Part shown: positions 10,781 to 15,286 of the stretch, in pieces | Numbering within the stretch: the first letter of the stretch is position 1 | Layout: each line of letters starts with the position of its first letter | Assembly (NCBI RefSeq): GCF_002214465.1 | Contig: NZ_CP015101.1 | Location: 174,502 to 238,501 of the forward strand | Origin: Thermococcus barossii | GTDB lineage: Archaea; Methanobacteriota_B; Thermococci; Thermococcales; Thermococcaceae | Direction: 5' to 3' | DNA length: 64,000 bases | Position numbers and translations under genes: made by a program | The notes under the pieces: model-generated | Database searches by the model: none | Told to the model about the DNA's origin: nothing | Seen by the model: the letters and a program-made list of their open reading frames with translations, nothing else

Positions 10781-10820
10781 TTAAATAGTTCACGCACGAT
10801 TATCATAATCATGAGTGAAC
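10781..10820 (+). promoter_or_regulatory. TATA box and start-codon-spanning dyad of ATPase module 2
   Basis: TTAAATAG at 10781-10788 is 30 bp before the ATG at 10811. Positions 10788-10820 form a dyad with 14 of 16 pairs matching, centred on 10804: outer arms GTTCAC and GTGAAC, inner core GATTATCATAATC (10798-10810) ending at the start codon. The inner core is the one seen before the gene at 160; the outer arms differ in sequence but are self-complementary. Confidence 0.6.
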
Positions 10821-12187
10821 TATTCGTGAACCGCATCCGGGAACTGGAGGCACTGAGGAAGGCTTACCTAAGTGAGCGGAAGGAGCTGATACTGGTCTAC
10901 GGGCGCAGGAGGATAGGGAAGACCGAGCTCGTGAAGCGGTCGGTTGAAGGGATTCCGCACGTTTACTTCTTCGCCGAGGAGGCCCTTGAAAGTGAGAACC
11001 TCTCGACCTTCAGGGGACTCGTCGGGAAGGCCCTTAAGAACCCCCTGATCGGCAGGGCCGAGCTCTCGTGGGAGGAGCTGTTCGAACTTCTCGACGGCTC
11101 CGGAGTGGTGGTTATAATAGACGAGTTCCCGAACCTCATCAGGCAGAACCCCGGGATGTTATCAAAGTTCCAGAAAATCTGGGACGGCTCAAGGGGTCTG
11201 AAGCTCGTTTTAACCGGCTCCTCGGTTAGCGTGATGGAGAGTCAGGTTCTCGGCCACAGGAGCCCGCTCTACGGCAGGAGGACGCTCTCCCTGCGGCTCA
11301 ACCCCCTAATTTTCTTCCACCTGAGGGAGTTCTTTCCAGACAGGGGCTGGGAGGAGCTGGTGAGGATTTACGGGATAACCGACGGCATTCCCGCGTACAT
11401 CCAAGAGGTTCGCTTCAGGCTCAGTGCCGGTGAGAGGCTCGAGGAGGTTTTCCGGCCCAACAAGCCCCTCTTTGATGAGGCCGAATTCCTCCTGAGGAGC
11501 GAGCTGAGGGAGCCGCGGAGGTACTTCTCAATACTCAGGGCGATAGCCTTTGGGAAGACGAGGTTTGGGGAGATAGTGAGCTTCACCGGTCTGCCAAGCT
11601 CGACGGTTTCAAAGTACCTCGACAACCTGCAGGAGCTCCACATAGTCGAGGAGAGGCATCCCGTTGGCGAGCCCGAGCGGAGGAGGAACGCGAGGTACTA
11701 CATAAGCGACCTGTACTTCACCTTCTGGTTCCGCTTCGTCTACCCCAACCGCTCCCAGCTCCTTGAGTACGGCCACATCGAGGGCTTCGAGGAGGAATAC
11801 AACCGCTACCTTGGCTTCGTCTTTGAAAAGGTCGCCGAGCAGTTCCTGGTAAAGCTCAGCAAGTCCGGAAACCTGCCCTTCAGGTTCACAAAGATTGGCC
11901 GCTGGTGGCGTAAGAACGAGGAGATTGACATGCTCGCCATGAACGAGAGGGAGAAAAGAGCCCTCTTCGTGGAGGTTAAGTGGAAAAGCCTGGGGGAGAG
12001 GGAAGCGCGGGGGATACTCAGGGATTTGGAGCGGAAGAGCGAGCTGGTGGGTCTTGATGACTGGGAGAAGGGCTATGGCCTGGTGGCGAAGGAAGTTGGG
12101 AGCAAGGAGGAACTCAGGGAAAACGGTTACCTCGTCTGGGATTTGGGGGATTTCGAAAGGCTTATTTCTTTTGAGGGCAAAGTTTGA
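10811..12187 (+). CDS. Archaeal P-loop ATPase with C-terminal DUF234 / PD-(D/E)XK-like domain (module 2)
   Basis: 458 residues, paralogue of the 160-1545 protein over its full length and especially over the last 120 residues. Walker A GRRRIGKT is at 31-38, Walker B ends IIDEFPNL near residue 105, and a winged-helix-like segment is near 240-290. The C-terminal nuclease-like signature is D373 with E388-V-K390. The 3' ends of the two genes are also closely similar in DNA. It is probably leaderless, with the start overlapped by a dyad. It is followed after 12 nt by a degenerate partner gene. Function unknown. Confidence 0.9.
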   Translation: MSELFVNRIRELEALRKAYLSERKELILVYGRRRIGKTELVKRSVEGIPHVYFFAEEALESENLSTFRGLVGKALKNPLIGRAELSWEELFELLDGSGVVVIIDEFPNLIRQNPGMLSKFQKIWDGSRGLKLVLTGSSVSVMESQVLGHRSPLYGRRTLSLRLNPLIFFHLREFFPDRGWEELVRIYGITDGIPAYIQEVRFRLSAGERLEEVFRPNKPLFDEAEFLLRSELREPRRYFSILRAIAFGKTRFGEIVSFTGLPSSTVSKYLDNLQELHIVEERHPVGEPERRRNARYYISDLYFTFWFRFVYPNRSQLLEYGHIEGFEEEYNRYLGFVFEKVAEQFLVKLSKSGNLPFRFTKIGRWWRKNEEIDMLAMNEREKRALFVEVKWKSLGEREARGILRDLERKSELVGLDDWEKGYGLVAKEVGSKEELRENGYLVWDLGDFERLISFEGKV

Positions 12188-12199
12188 GGGGTGTGGGTC

Positions 12200-13223
12200 A
12201 TGCTGCTGACATTTCACCAGCTCCCCTTTGATGTGGTGCACCTGCAGGCGCTCCTGTTTTCGATAATGCCGGTGCTGTGGATCGCGCATGAGAAAAAGAT
12301 AAAAAAAGAATCCGAAAATCGTACACACACCTAGCTACAACGATAGACATCCACCTCAGAAAGCAAGGGATCCCTCTGGAACTGCAAAGACTCATAAGTG
12401 ACCGGTACAAAGGAGAGCCTATATACGTGGTTGCAAAAAACGACGTGGAACTGGCAAAAATTCTGATGTTTTTAGACATCGTAACCTCAATAGCAAGGAA
12501 AAAATTTGGCAGCACTGCAAAAGTCGAAAGTGCGATCCCCGTCGACATGCGATTGTTAAGCATGAAAGAAGACCTAGATCTTAAATTCGACAAAAAATAC
12601 CGGGAAAAAACTGAAGAAGCGAGGAAAAAAGCCCCTTACACTCGACGACATCATAAACTCCGAGGATATTTTGAACTCGATCGCGGCAAAGATCGCCAGA
12701 TCATCTGGGTCAAACGTTACCAGAGAGGATGTAAAGAAAATGATAAAGGAGTACATCCCATACATTAAAAGGATTGCCGACGCGTACCCTGAAGATCCAT
12801 CGTTCTACGACAAGATCATGCAAATCCCAGACCTGCCAGATTTAGAAAGAGATATTAAACCGCTGAATCCCGAAATATACAACGCAGTGGAAGCGTTGGC
12901 TGAAAAGCTGAAAGAGGATCTCAAAGCACCAGAACCCGTGCAGGAGAAAATCCGCTCACAGACAAAAACCTCGCCGATTGATCTCTCCAAAGCCAAGCTC
13001 GAAGTTCTCTCCATCCTCAACGGCCTTGAGTTCGCGGGCTTTTCCGATGATGCCAAGGCTAGGGCGGTGGAGAAACTCTCGGCAAAGATAGCCGAACTCT
13101 CCTCCGGCGGGCTGACCCAGGAGAGGGTCGGAGAGGGTCTTTGAGATGGGCCTCTACGCCTTTGCGCTTGAAATGATAAGGGCCGGCAAGTTCGAGAGGG
13201 TGAGGGAGGTGGAGAAGCTTTGA
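12200..13223 (+). pseudogene. Frameshifted partner gene of ATPase module 2
   Basis: The open frame from ATG 12200 (a hydrophobic N-terminus of about 25 residues, then a basic stretch) leaves frame near an A7 run at about 12300-12308. The next frame runs to a second shift at an A6 run at about 12624-12631, and the third part (with SKAKLEVLSILNGLEFAGF, matching the module-1 partner) ends at TGA 13142 although its homologous tail MGLYAFALEMI continues in another frame to 13221-13223. Three shifts, two at homopolymers, indicate a decayed gene or sequencing error; recoding is less likely. The reconstructed protein would be about 340 residues, like its 349-residue counterpart. Confidence 0.75.
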
Positions 13224-13232
13224 CCTGCAAGG

Positions 13233-14315
13233 TCAAAGCTCCCGGAAGACCCTCTCCAGGACGGGGTCGGGGATGGTGTACCTTCCTTCCCTTTTCTCCA
13301 CGTAGCCCGACTTCACGAGGTTTTCTAGCAGGGCCGAAAAGTTCGAGTCGTTCACGTAGCCCAGCTTCAGCGTGACGTAGTCCTTTATGTCCTTCCACCT
13401 TGAATAGCCGAGCGCCACCGCCTTCAAAATCACCCTGTATCTGGGGCTGTAGGCGAAGAGCCTCGAAAGCTCGCCATCCGCTATTGATTTGGCCTCCCTC
13501 AGAACCTCCTCAATGGCCTCCCCGTGTCTGAGCTTCCTCGTGACGCGGGTGTAGCCATAGAGGGCCAGCCAGCCGGGAATCCCGTCGAGTTTCTCCACCG
13601 CATCTTCAATCTCGCGCTCCCTCACCTCAACCCCCACCTCTTCAAATCCCCTCCTCAAAAATTCGGCACTCAGCCCCGGTTCAAACCTTTCCAGGGCTAT
13701 GTCGTGGTGGTACCTGCCGAAAAGGGGGGCATTTGGGTCGTCCGGCTTGAGGAAGTCAAAGAGAAGACCCACCTCCGAGCCGGTCAGGATGAAGGTCAGG
13801 TTGGGCAGGTTGTCCACGGCGTAAGCTAAAATCCCATCGTACCTTGTGGCTCCCCCGAAACGCAGGTATTGAGCCTCGTCGAAGGCTATGACGACCCTGC
13901 CGGCCTCTTCACCGTAGTCGTTGAGCGCCTCAAGGAGTTCAGTTATTGAAAAGTCCCGCGAAGTTATCTCGACCCTGAAGCCGGAAACGCTGACCCCGCG
14001 AACCCTCTCAAGGAAGGCCCTTGCCTCCTCGACCAGCCTCTTCTTCCCGCTCATCCCCGAGAGCAACATCTTTCCGATTACGTACCTGTTCACCGAGGAG
14101 AACTCCGAGTATGTTTTCCGGACGTCTATCTTGATTGAGGGGTTTGGGAGCTCGTTCAGCGCAACGTTCAGGAGTGAGCTTTTGCCGAGCCTTCTCAACC
14201 CGAGGAGGAGGACCAGCCTCTCCCCGCGCTCCACGGAGCTTTCAAGCTCCCCCAGCTCCACCTCCCTGTCGAACAGTTCCTCCCTTCTGGTCTTTGGGTA
14301 GGGTGAGAACAGCAT
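13233..14315 (-). CDS. Archaeal P-loop ATPase with winged-helix C-terminus (third ATPase)
   Basis: 360 residues from ATG 14315; a longer in-frame start at 14411 would run through the palindromes and a hairpin and is rejected. Walker A GLRRLGKS is at residues 39-46, Walker B VVIAFDEAQ lies near 150-160, and the sensor segment FILTGSE follows. The C-terminal 60 residues look like a winged helix (SALLENLVKSGYVEKREGRY), and there is no EVK nuclease motif as in the module ATPases, so it belongs to another branch of ATPase_2. It is convergent with the pseudogene at 12200-13223 (9 nt apart), putting three related ATPase genes within 14 kb. Function unknown. Confidence 0.88.
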   Translation of the reverse strand: MLFSPYPKTRREELFDREVELGELESSVERGERLVLLLGLRRLGKSSLLNVALNELPNPSIKIDVRKTYSEFSSVNRYVIGKMLLSGMSGKKRLVEEARAFLERVRGVSVSGFRVEITSRDFSITELLEALNDYGEEAGRVVIAFDEAQYLRFGGATRYDGILAYAVDNLPNLTFILTGSEVGLLFDFLKPDDPNAPLFGRYHHDIALERFEPGLSAEFLRRGFEEVGVEVREREIEDAVEKLDGIPGWLALYGYTRVTRKLRHGEAIEEVLREAKSIADGELSRLFAYSPRYRVILKAVALGYSRWKDIKDYVTLKLGYVNDSNFSALLENLVKSGYVEKREGRYTIPDPVLERVFREL

Positions 14316-14316
14316 T

Positions 14317-14361
14317 AACTTGCACCCCCACAAGTTACTTGCACCCCTGCAAGTTAAAAGG
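14317..14361 (-). promoter_or_regulatory. Tandem palindromes and TATA-like box before the third ATPase
   Basis: Two dyads of the form ACTTG-N-CAAGT lie 20 bp apart: AACTTG/CAAGTT at 14317-14336 (6-bp arms) and ACTTGCA/TGCAAGT at 14337-14354 (perfect 7-bp arms around CCCC). On the minus strand CCTTTTAACTT at about 14351-14361 could be the TATA box, placing the palindromes over the transcription start and just before ATG 14315. Spacing of about two helical turns fits cooperative binding of a dimeric repressor. Confidence 0.6.
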
Positions 14362-14370
14362 TTTTCCATC

Positions 14371-14409
14371 AAACTTCGCGTTGCGAAGTTTGCTTTGCAA
14401 AAAAGTTTC
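14371..14409. repeat. Isolated hairpin resembling the end of the dispersed three-hairpin repeat
   Basis: AAACTTCGC (14371-14379), GTT, GCGAAGTTT (14383-14391) is a perfect 9-bp inverted repeat, followed by TGCTTTGCA and AAAAAGTTTC. It resembles the GAAACTTTTGC-NNN-GCAAAAGTTTC hairpins at 32749 and 51015, but I see no full element attached. Confidence 0.45.
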
Positions 14410-14515: not shown

Positions 14516-15286
14516 ATGGCCTGGCACGTCTTCATTCCCGATTCGCTCCTCGAGGAAACCGACGACCCAAAAATCAGGACGTACAAGGTTGGACAGATAG
14601 CCAGGAGCTGCGCGATATTCGGCGTCGAGCACATCTGGATATACAGGGCGGGCGGCAGGGACGGAAGGTTCATCAAAACGATCTTGGAGTACGCGGAAAC
14701 GCCCCAGTACCTCAGGAAGAGGCTGTTTCCGCTGATGCCCGAGCTCAGGTACGTCGGCGTTATCCCGCCACTAAGGACACCCCACCACAAGCTCAAGGGC
14801 AAGCCTAGGGTTGGGGAAATCCGCGAGGGCTTCGCCTTCCTGAAAGGCAAACGGGTTTACGCGGACATCGGCCTCGACGAGCTCGCCTTGGTGGAGGGGG
14901 ACGTTGAGGGACGCGCGACCTTCAGAATCGTCTCGGTAAGGCCGCTCAGGGTGGTACCAGCGAAGCCAGAGGAGTACTGGGGATACAGGGTGCATCTCAC
15001 GAGGAAGTCGCTGGCAAAAACACTTAAAAAGGCCAGGCTGGATCTGACCATCGCGACCTCAAGGAGGGGTCGTGACGTTCGAGAGGTGAAGCTTCCCCCG
15101 CTCGAGGGGGAGGTCGGATTCGTCTTCGGCTCACCGAGGAAGGGCGTGATGGAGCTCCTCGGCGAGGAGGAATATGACTTTGATCTAATCCTCAACACCG
15201 TTCCAAATCAGCGGACAGCTACCGTCCGCACCGAGGAGGCGCTCCTCGCTACACTCGCGGTGTTTAATCTCATAAGGAGGGATTGA
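14516..15286 (+). CDS. SPOUT-class RNA methyltransferase (COG2106, putative RNA uridine-N3 type)
   Basis: 256 residues starting [14 protein letters not shown], with AAGGATGA in front of the ATG. The N-terminal half and the C-terminal segment [14 protein letters not shown] and [19 protein letters not shown] are those of the SPOUT (trefoil-knot) family adjacent to rpl3 in many Euryarchaeota; the family is proposed to methylate rRNA. A longer frame begins at 14135 but crosses the divergent ATPase gene and its palindromes, so it is rejected. There is 1 nt between its stop and the L3 start. Confidence 0.9.

Follow-up and report, generated by a model that had tools for sequence, protein, structure and literature searches.

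Tandem dyads between the TATA-like box and the start codon of an ATPase_2 gene in Thermococcus barossii as candidate gene-specific operators

Integrated elements are characterized by attL and attR direct repeats and by empty sites, and the Orc1/Cdc6 initiators combine AAA+ and winged-helix domains and bind repeat sites on DNA. On the P. abyssi ATPase family, a crystallisation paper reportedly appeared in 2005. Closest to our protein are the Walker-type ATPases PABY2304 (2qen) and SSO1545 (2fna) of the ATPase_2 family, to which it aligns from end to end (E 7.5e-81 and 1.4e-46, respectively) and with which it shares the fold; the entries for these two proteins cover their structures, and we found nothing there about promoters or flanking repeats. 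A likeness in promoter layout is seen with Stf76 of pSSVx, one of the small archaeal winged-helix factors. It binds its promoter at a pair of palindromes, one of which overlaps part of the BRE, and autoregulation through them is proposed (PMC4027180). Stf76 is a protein of 76 aa without an ATPase, whereas the sites of the ATPase family vary by subfamily and recur 3' of many genes. The fold match to Orc1/Cdc6 (2qby) is weak (TM 0.47-0.50), and the sites of our family differ from those of the initiators in being gene-specific. As in attL/attR elements, direct repeats of ~40 bp stand at both ends of many of the ATPase genes, and one copy is kept at gene-less loci; unlike those elements, the unit is a single gene with no integrase, its repeats are tandem promoter palindromes, and the focal gene itself has no 3' copy. 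At the level of titles and the opening of abstracts, with subscription journals largely outside reach, we found no account of the family's dyads, subfamily operators, 3' repeats, or scars, nor did we find an assigned function for ATPase_2 proteins.

The window is the whole 64-kb stretch of T. barossii DNA that was analyzed. The features needed below are the following.

148-159, (+): dyad GATTATATAATC, upstream of the start of the window's first ATPase gene (comparison)
10798-10810, (+): dyad GATTATCATAATC, directly 5' of the ATG of a DUF234-type ATPase gene (comparison)
12427-13226, (+): degenerate convergent gene with a broken reading frame, right flank
13218-13238, no strand: 21-bp palindrome, different from the dyads, at the focal stop codon
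13233-14315, (-): focal ATPase gene, 360 aa, ATPase_2 and MCM_C-type winged helix (Pfam)
13308-13349, (-): predicted recognition helix DSNFSALLENLVKS, residues 323-336, N-terminal residues varying by subfamily
14315-14313, (-): ATG of the focal gene; the dyads lie between it and the TATA-like box
14318-14335, (-): ATG-proximal dyad ACTTGCACCCCCACAAGT, outer arms of 5 bp perfect, pairs 6 and 7 failing in DNA
14337-14354, (-): promoter-proximal dyad ACTTGCACCCCTGCAAGT, perfect 7-bp arms, abutting the TATA-like box
14354-14363, (-): TATA-like box AACCTTTTAA, assigned from sequence (CCTTTTAA is 14361-14354)
14519-15286, (+): RNA methyltransferase gene (Methyltrn_RNA_3), left flank, followed by a ribosomal-protein L3 gene

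A preliminary description had reported tandem ACTTG-CAAGT palindromes between the TATA-like box and the ATG, 20 bp apart, one with perfect 7-bp arms. The two 18-bp dyads are indeed present upstream of the focal gene and the perfect one is at 14337-14354, with a measured period of 19 bp. The pattern ACTTGYRNNNNYRCAAGT, allowing at most one mismatch, has 2 matches in the window, whereas 100 dinucleotide shuffles give an expectation of 0.06 and never as many as 2. In T. kodakarensis the distance from TATA box to transcription start has a median of 23 bp (PMC4247193); because of this spacing rule, we place the focal start near 14331, with one dyad beside the TATA-like box and one over the start. 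The symmetric site overlaps the gene's presumed core promoter, itself recognized from sequence.

The symmetry could instead act in RNA, as a leader hairpin that controls translation. The positions of 14318-14335 that fail to pair in DNA would be U-G and G-U wobbles on the sense strand, and the loop GGGGTG resembles a ribosome-binding sequence, a role that it may have in addition to its place in the dyad. However, the promoter-proximal dyad, being located before the inferred start, would stay untranscribed. A separate hairpin, CAAACTTCGC-GTT-GCGAAGTTTG (14370-14392), lies immediately upstream of the focal promoter. Ten of the 12 intact orthologues from the focal site, and L162 too, have a hairpin with 9-11 bp arms at a similar distance, the arms varying between orthologues with complementarity kept; shuffles reached 9 bp in 3 of 460 cases, and the arms in the remaining orthologues checked are at most 7 bp.

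In the 1,922,421-bp genome, the exact pattern ACTTGY-N6-RCAAGT occurs only at the two focal sites, so that no other promoter in it carries this site. Allowing one mismatch adds 6 genome places, versus 34 for the reversed control pattern. Across 94 genomes of the same family, hand-added totals give 86 motif sites versus 76 for the reversed pattern, a raw count that we regard as no higher than the control; for this reason we use only the location of the motif as evidence. Among the 75 of the 86 sites that are listed, 70 fall at an orthologue, a remnant, or a gene-less locus sharing at least one flank of the focal site, and 5 fall elsewhere. The expectation that a motif search would tie these sites to their genes is therefore borne out by location and not by raw count, and only by location is the motif non-random.

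To place the focal dyads within the family, we searched the same 94 genomes with the protein (E <= 1e-25) and obtained matches in 83. The matches listed yielded 140 usable proteins with a length of 300 aa or more, counting the focal one. Seven listed matches were left out for a contig edge, a partial gene, or a stop (G007:267664, G028:1153610, G042:C8, G050:C4, G051:C140, G052:C205, and G083:C195), as were L164 and the reading frames shorter than 300 aa (L038, L043, and L056); L161, L162, and L163 stand for the genes of L028, L033, and L045. We found that 133 of the 140 homologues have a dyad at -50 to +2 in which 6 or all 7 of the arm pairs match; in 97 it is perfect. In a control stretch of the same genes (-150 to -98) the corresponding numbers were 16/140 and 4/140, and in dinucleotide shuffles 623/2800 (22%) for 6/7 and 56/2800 (2%) for 7/7. 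Four of the seven failing homologues still show tandem sites by eye (L022, L027, and L162 of G1; L134 of G3); the other three are L075 and L082 (G5) and L133 (G6).

The arms differ by subfamily: ACTTGYR in G1, which includes the focal gene; ACTTACC in G2; (A/G)GTATCG or (A/G)GTAAYG in G3; ACTTAYG in G4; CCAGTNACTGG in G5; and variable in G6. When only the left arm was used to select dyads, Watson-Crick pairs made up 772 of the 840 arm pairs (120 genes of G1-G4, leaving out the 20 of G5 and G6); when the right arms were dealt out anew in 1000 rounds, the mean was 512 and the maximum 565. We conclude from 772 versus 512 pairs that the right arm tracks the left across subfamily changes, which is how a two-fold symmetric site bound by a protein should behave. 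Symmetric, subfamily-specific arms at one and the same position have the look of gene-specific operators, and the earlier suggestion of a separate cis-element for every branch of the family extends to 140 homologues. G1 arms accompany G1 genes in the genomes of three genera (g1, g3, and g5). At L093 the tandem dyad is multiplied into several head-to-tail copies upstream of the start codon.

Two alternatives can be weighed on these data. That the dyads reflect chance or base composition draws on the other palindrome nearby (14370-14392) and on the 22% of shuffles with a 6/7 dyad; perfect dyads in 97 of 140 genes against 2% of shuffles, together with the symmetric change of the arms, leave this explanation next to no probability. 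The RNA hairpin gains from arm position 6, where T-G pairs outnumber C-A pairs 35 to 7. It loses from L034-L036, where the centre of the promoter-proximal dyad is inverted relative to the other dyad, and from the recurrence of own-type dyads 3' of many genes; on balance we consider it very improbable.

Other ATPase genes carry other dyads. GATTAT-type dyads at the other two ATPase genes of the window, as the preliminary description had them, are present at 148-159 and 10798-10810, and further ATPases of the same genome again have different ones. In PADLOC, the DUF234-type ATPase (10811-12187), whose ATG is likewise preceded by a dyad of its own, hits the candidate defence family PDC-S27 (E 3.1e-45). 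Among distant ATPases of this genome, L015, L016, and L018 show by eye tandem or paired dyads near the promoter (TTTACAT three times, TAGTCTG, and TGGTAAAGT). Outside the order, the same architecture is found in L188, a Staphylothermus MAG whose arms are ACTAGTA/ACTGGTG, and, with GTTCTGA arms, in MAG contigs labelled Thermotogales (L206) and Methanoculleus (L209), labels that may be wrong. Long GGACATCCCCCAT-ATGGGGTGTGTCC-like dyads precede the start in another subfamily, L201-L204; in L201, L203, and L204 a similar palindrome also lies, by eye, past the stop codon.

The focal protein scores 68.3 bits for ATPase_2 (Pfam cut-off 33.2) and 38.5 bits for MCM_C (cut-off 27), the latter giving it a C-terminal winged helix. 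In its structure model (pLDDT 92.3), this domain comprises helices 292-301, 307-318, and 323-336 and strands 340-342 and 345-347. The segment GLRRLGKSS is P-loop-like in sequence, and ATP hydrolysis is at most predicted. The nearest fold neighbours of the model are 2qen and 2fna, followed by Cdc6/Orc1 bound to origin DNA. ATPase_2 proteins are multicopy in genomes of this kind, with 16 matches here, 11 of them over the family cut-off; among named genomes, close relatives of the focal protein are in Thermococcus MAGs, and NCBIfam returned nothing for it. We make no claim of a defence role, as the PADLOC matches of the focal protein are weak (candidate families PDC-S27 and PDC-S01, best E 9.5e-07).

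Does the recognition helix follow the arms? Residues 322-326 are mostly NDSNF in G1, NDAKF in G2, TNAR(L/F) or PNSRL in G3, PEPRL in G4, and DDKNF in G5. L188, whose ATPase domain is about equidistant from G1, G2, G4, and G5 (42-46%), shares with G5 both DKNF and an ACTGGTG half-site. Within G3, helix residues and arms split perfectly (46/46), yet this is a single change on the tree, confounded with descent, and so gives no independent support for a residue-arm link. In a class-balanced scan for arm-linked residues, 322 ranks 9th and 324 ranks 20th of 360 columns, and only 1 of the top 18 columns falls within 319-337, so that the recognition helix does not stand out. The match between helix start and arm type is thus suggestive but weak.

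We propose that the focal dyads are the operator of the ATPase gene and that the encoded protein most likely binds them and represses its own promoter, a reading to which we give a probability of about 0.7. Autoregulation requires the fewest assumptions, since no gene in the genome other than the ATPase's own has this site. The ATPase, with its C-terminal winged helix, would bind the dyads as dimers, side by side from the TATA box to the start codon; the bound dimers would block transcription initiation and keep the protein at a low level, and the symmetric change of operator arms in each subfamily would allow paralogues in the same cell to avoid cross-talk. The same dyads could be operators of a separate trans-acting regulator for each subfamily, given that the link between protein and site is a prediction and that archaea commonly have winged-helix regulators whose palindromic sites overlie promoters. 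Such a regulator would be needed once per subfamily and would have to move between loci along with the gene; the exact site has no second target in this genome, and G1 arms and gene subfamily keep together across three genera. We regard a separate regulator as improbable.

Autorepression concerns the 5' dyads; many homologues have dyads at the stop codon as well. Counting matches to 11 or more of the 14 arm letters, we find a dyad of the gene's own type at -24 to +70 of the stop codon for 49 of the 139 genes, the focal gene not being among the 49, versus 2/695 in shuffles and 32/695 with dyads drawn from other clusters, a rate due in part to the likeness of G2 and G4 arms. Copies are found in 32/49 genes of G1 and G2, 10/15 of G5, 7/70 of G3 and G4, and 0/5 of G6. 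By eye, ten G1 genes (L021-L026, L029-L031, and L161) have one or two dyads at the stop codon, and L022 repeats nearly the entire 5' pair there. At the focal chromosomal site, one or two further ACTTG dyads lie at the stop codon in 9 of the 12 intact genes, which gives these direct repeats at both ends; neither the focal gene nor its closest orthologue (L020) has a 3' dyad copy. The 3' copy may be an aid to repression by looping or a relic of insertion, and insertion of a dyad-bearing unit may be one answer to the origin of the second copy.

These copies speak for a different explanation, partly compatible with the operator, in which dyad pairs are the ends of a single-gene cassette subject to site-specific recombination and transcription control is secondary. 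We consider it unlikely. Against it, 5' dyads are near-universal and 3' dyads are not, as the counts for G3, G4, G6, and the focal gene show. TnsC is among the fold neighbours of the focal protein (rank 22), but Pfam finds no recombinase or transposase domain in that protein, and phage and plasmid collections gave no relative.

The chromosomal site of the focal gene bears on both readings. Its flanking methyltransferase gene occurs in 59 of the 61 genomes of the genus, and we built a locus tree from this gene for 55 loci in 54 genomes, having left out the duplicates L179 and L180 and the contig-cut L228, L230, L233, L234, and L251; six more loci have no methyltransferase gene in the fetched DNA (L025, L033, L038, L172, L174, and L177). 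Of the 55, 12 hold an intact gene, 6 a dyad pair without the gene (L166, L167, L169, L170, L215, and L217), 3 a single dyad, 6 a remnant (L168 being scored as such by eye), and 28 nothing. Gene-less sites thus keep one copy of the repeat, as pair or single dyad, in agreement with the cassette. The L029/L217 comparison is two-sided: the flanks of the filled locus meet at the dyads in the gene-less one. At L166, each side matches a filled relative (91.5% for L030 and 92.3% for L029). The focal locus's sister, L215 (G016), whose methyltransferase is 98% identical to the focal one, lacks the gene and has a slightly worn dyad pair (11/12 letters each). On the tree, the filled state needs 9 changes, versus 11.0 with shuffled labels, and the solo pair needs 5 versus 5.8. 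We conclude that locus states are weakly clustered; the number of changes in the filled state favours the cassette, whereas the solo-pair label, hardly more clustered than shuffled, tells against it.

Not every gene-less locus fits a simple loss. In the solo loci L167, L169, L170, and L176 the promoter side is unrelated in sequence, so that these are not plain pop-outs, which also counts against the cassette. In these four loci the promoter side beside the solo dyads is replaced by a common sequence, TGATTTTACACGTTTTTGTTC. In L022, L167, and L170, the end of a gene matching the convergent one enters the dyad by eye, and the TAA of the dyad would be its stop codon. A G1 gene is found at another locus in G017, G021, G024, and G043, among the matches listed, as a cassette would have it; in these genomes the 3.4 kb before the methyltransferase gene has no match of at least 11/12 dyad letters.

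Scars are seen for other subfamilies too. A joined two-flank search of the genus for the G2 site gave matches in 59/61 genomes, from which we took 16 contiguous or short-join loci. By eye, 8 of the 16 (L253, L254, L259, L260, and L263-L266) have G2-type dyads without a gene, some worn, and the other 8 have no dyads, although L257 and L258 may hold traces. The G2 site therefore occurs filled, scarred, and dyad-free. In the window's own genome, the G2/G4-type pattern ACTTAY-N6-RTAAGT occurs in three places only, two at the G2 paralogue and one, of G4 type, at a locus with no G4 gene (1867105-1867122); the DNA within ~80 bases either side of it corresponds to the flanks of G4 genes in relatives. 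Both observations are in keeping with the cassette, and the near-confinement of the pattern to the G2 paralogue also favours the operator reading.

Because of the 3' copies and the gene-less scars, we conclude that the genes are dispensable and that many are bounded by their own operators. Dyads at gene-less loci such as L166 (G013) and L217 (G071), in genomes with no orthologue among the matches listed, go beyond autoregulation alone, and 3' copies and scars possibly reflect a second, separate role for the dyads. Loss of a gene, by recombination that would join its 5' and 3' repeats, would need no special enzyme, as P. furiosus COM1 is transformable with homology as short as 40 bp (PMC5099854); ordinary recombination of ~40-bp repeats could thus delete the gene without a cassette. 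In a bolder version, which we hold to be decidedly unlikely, the ATPase gene would be a one-gene mobile unit whose product recognizes the dyads at both ends, shuts the promoter, and joins the ends for exit or entry, leaving a scar, with subfamily-specific ends that do not cross-react.

Returning to the operator reading, the data suggest that the dyads are each gene's private switch and perhaps also the edge mark of a removable unit. If private operators are correct, they are a direct handle on what ATPase_2 proteins bind, and the arm variants (six classes in 140 genes, and more outside) are a natural series for the DNA-recognition code of the winged helix. Dyad-bounded genes and their scars would help to account for the patchy distribution of this family and may bring to light a minimal kind of mobile unit. 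Both ideas could soon be tested with the genetic systems available in Thermococcales (T. kodakarensis and P. furiosus).
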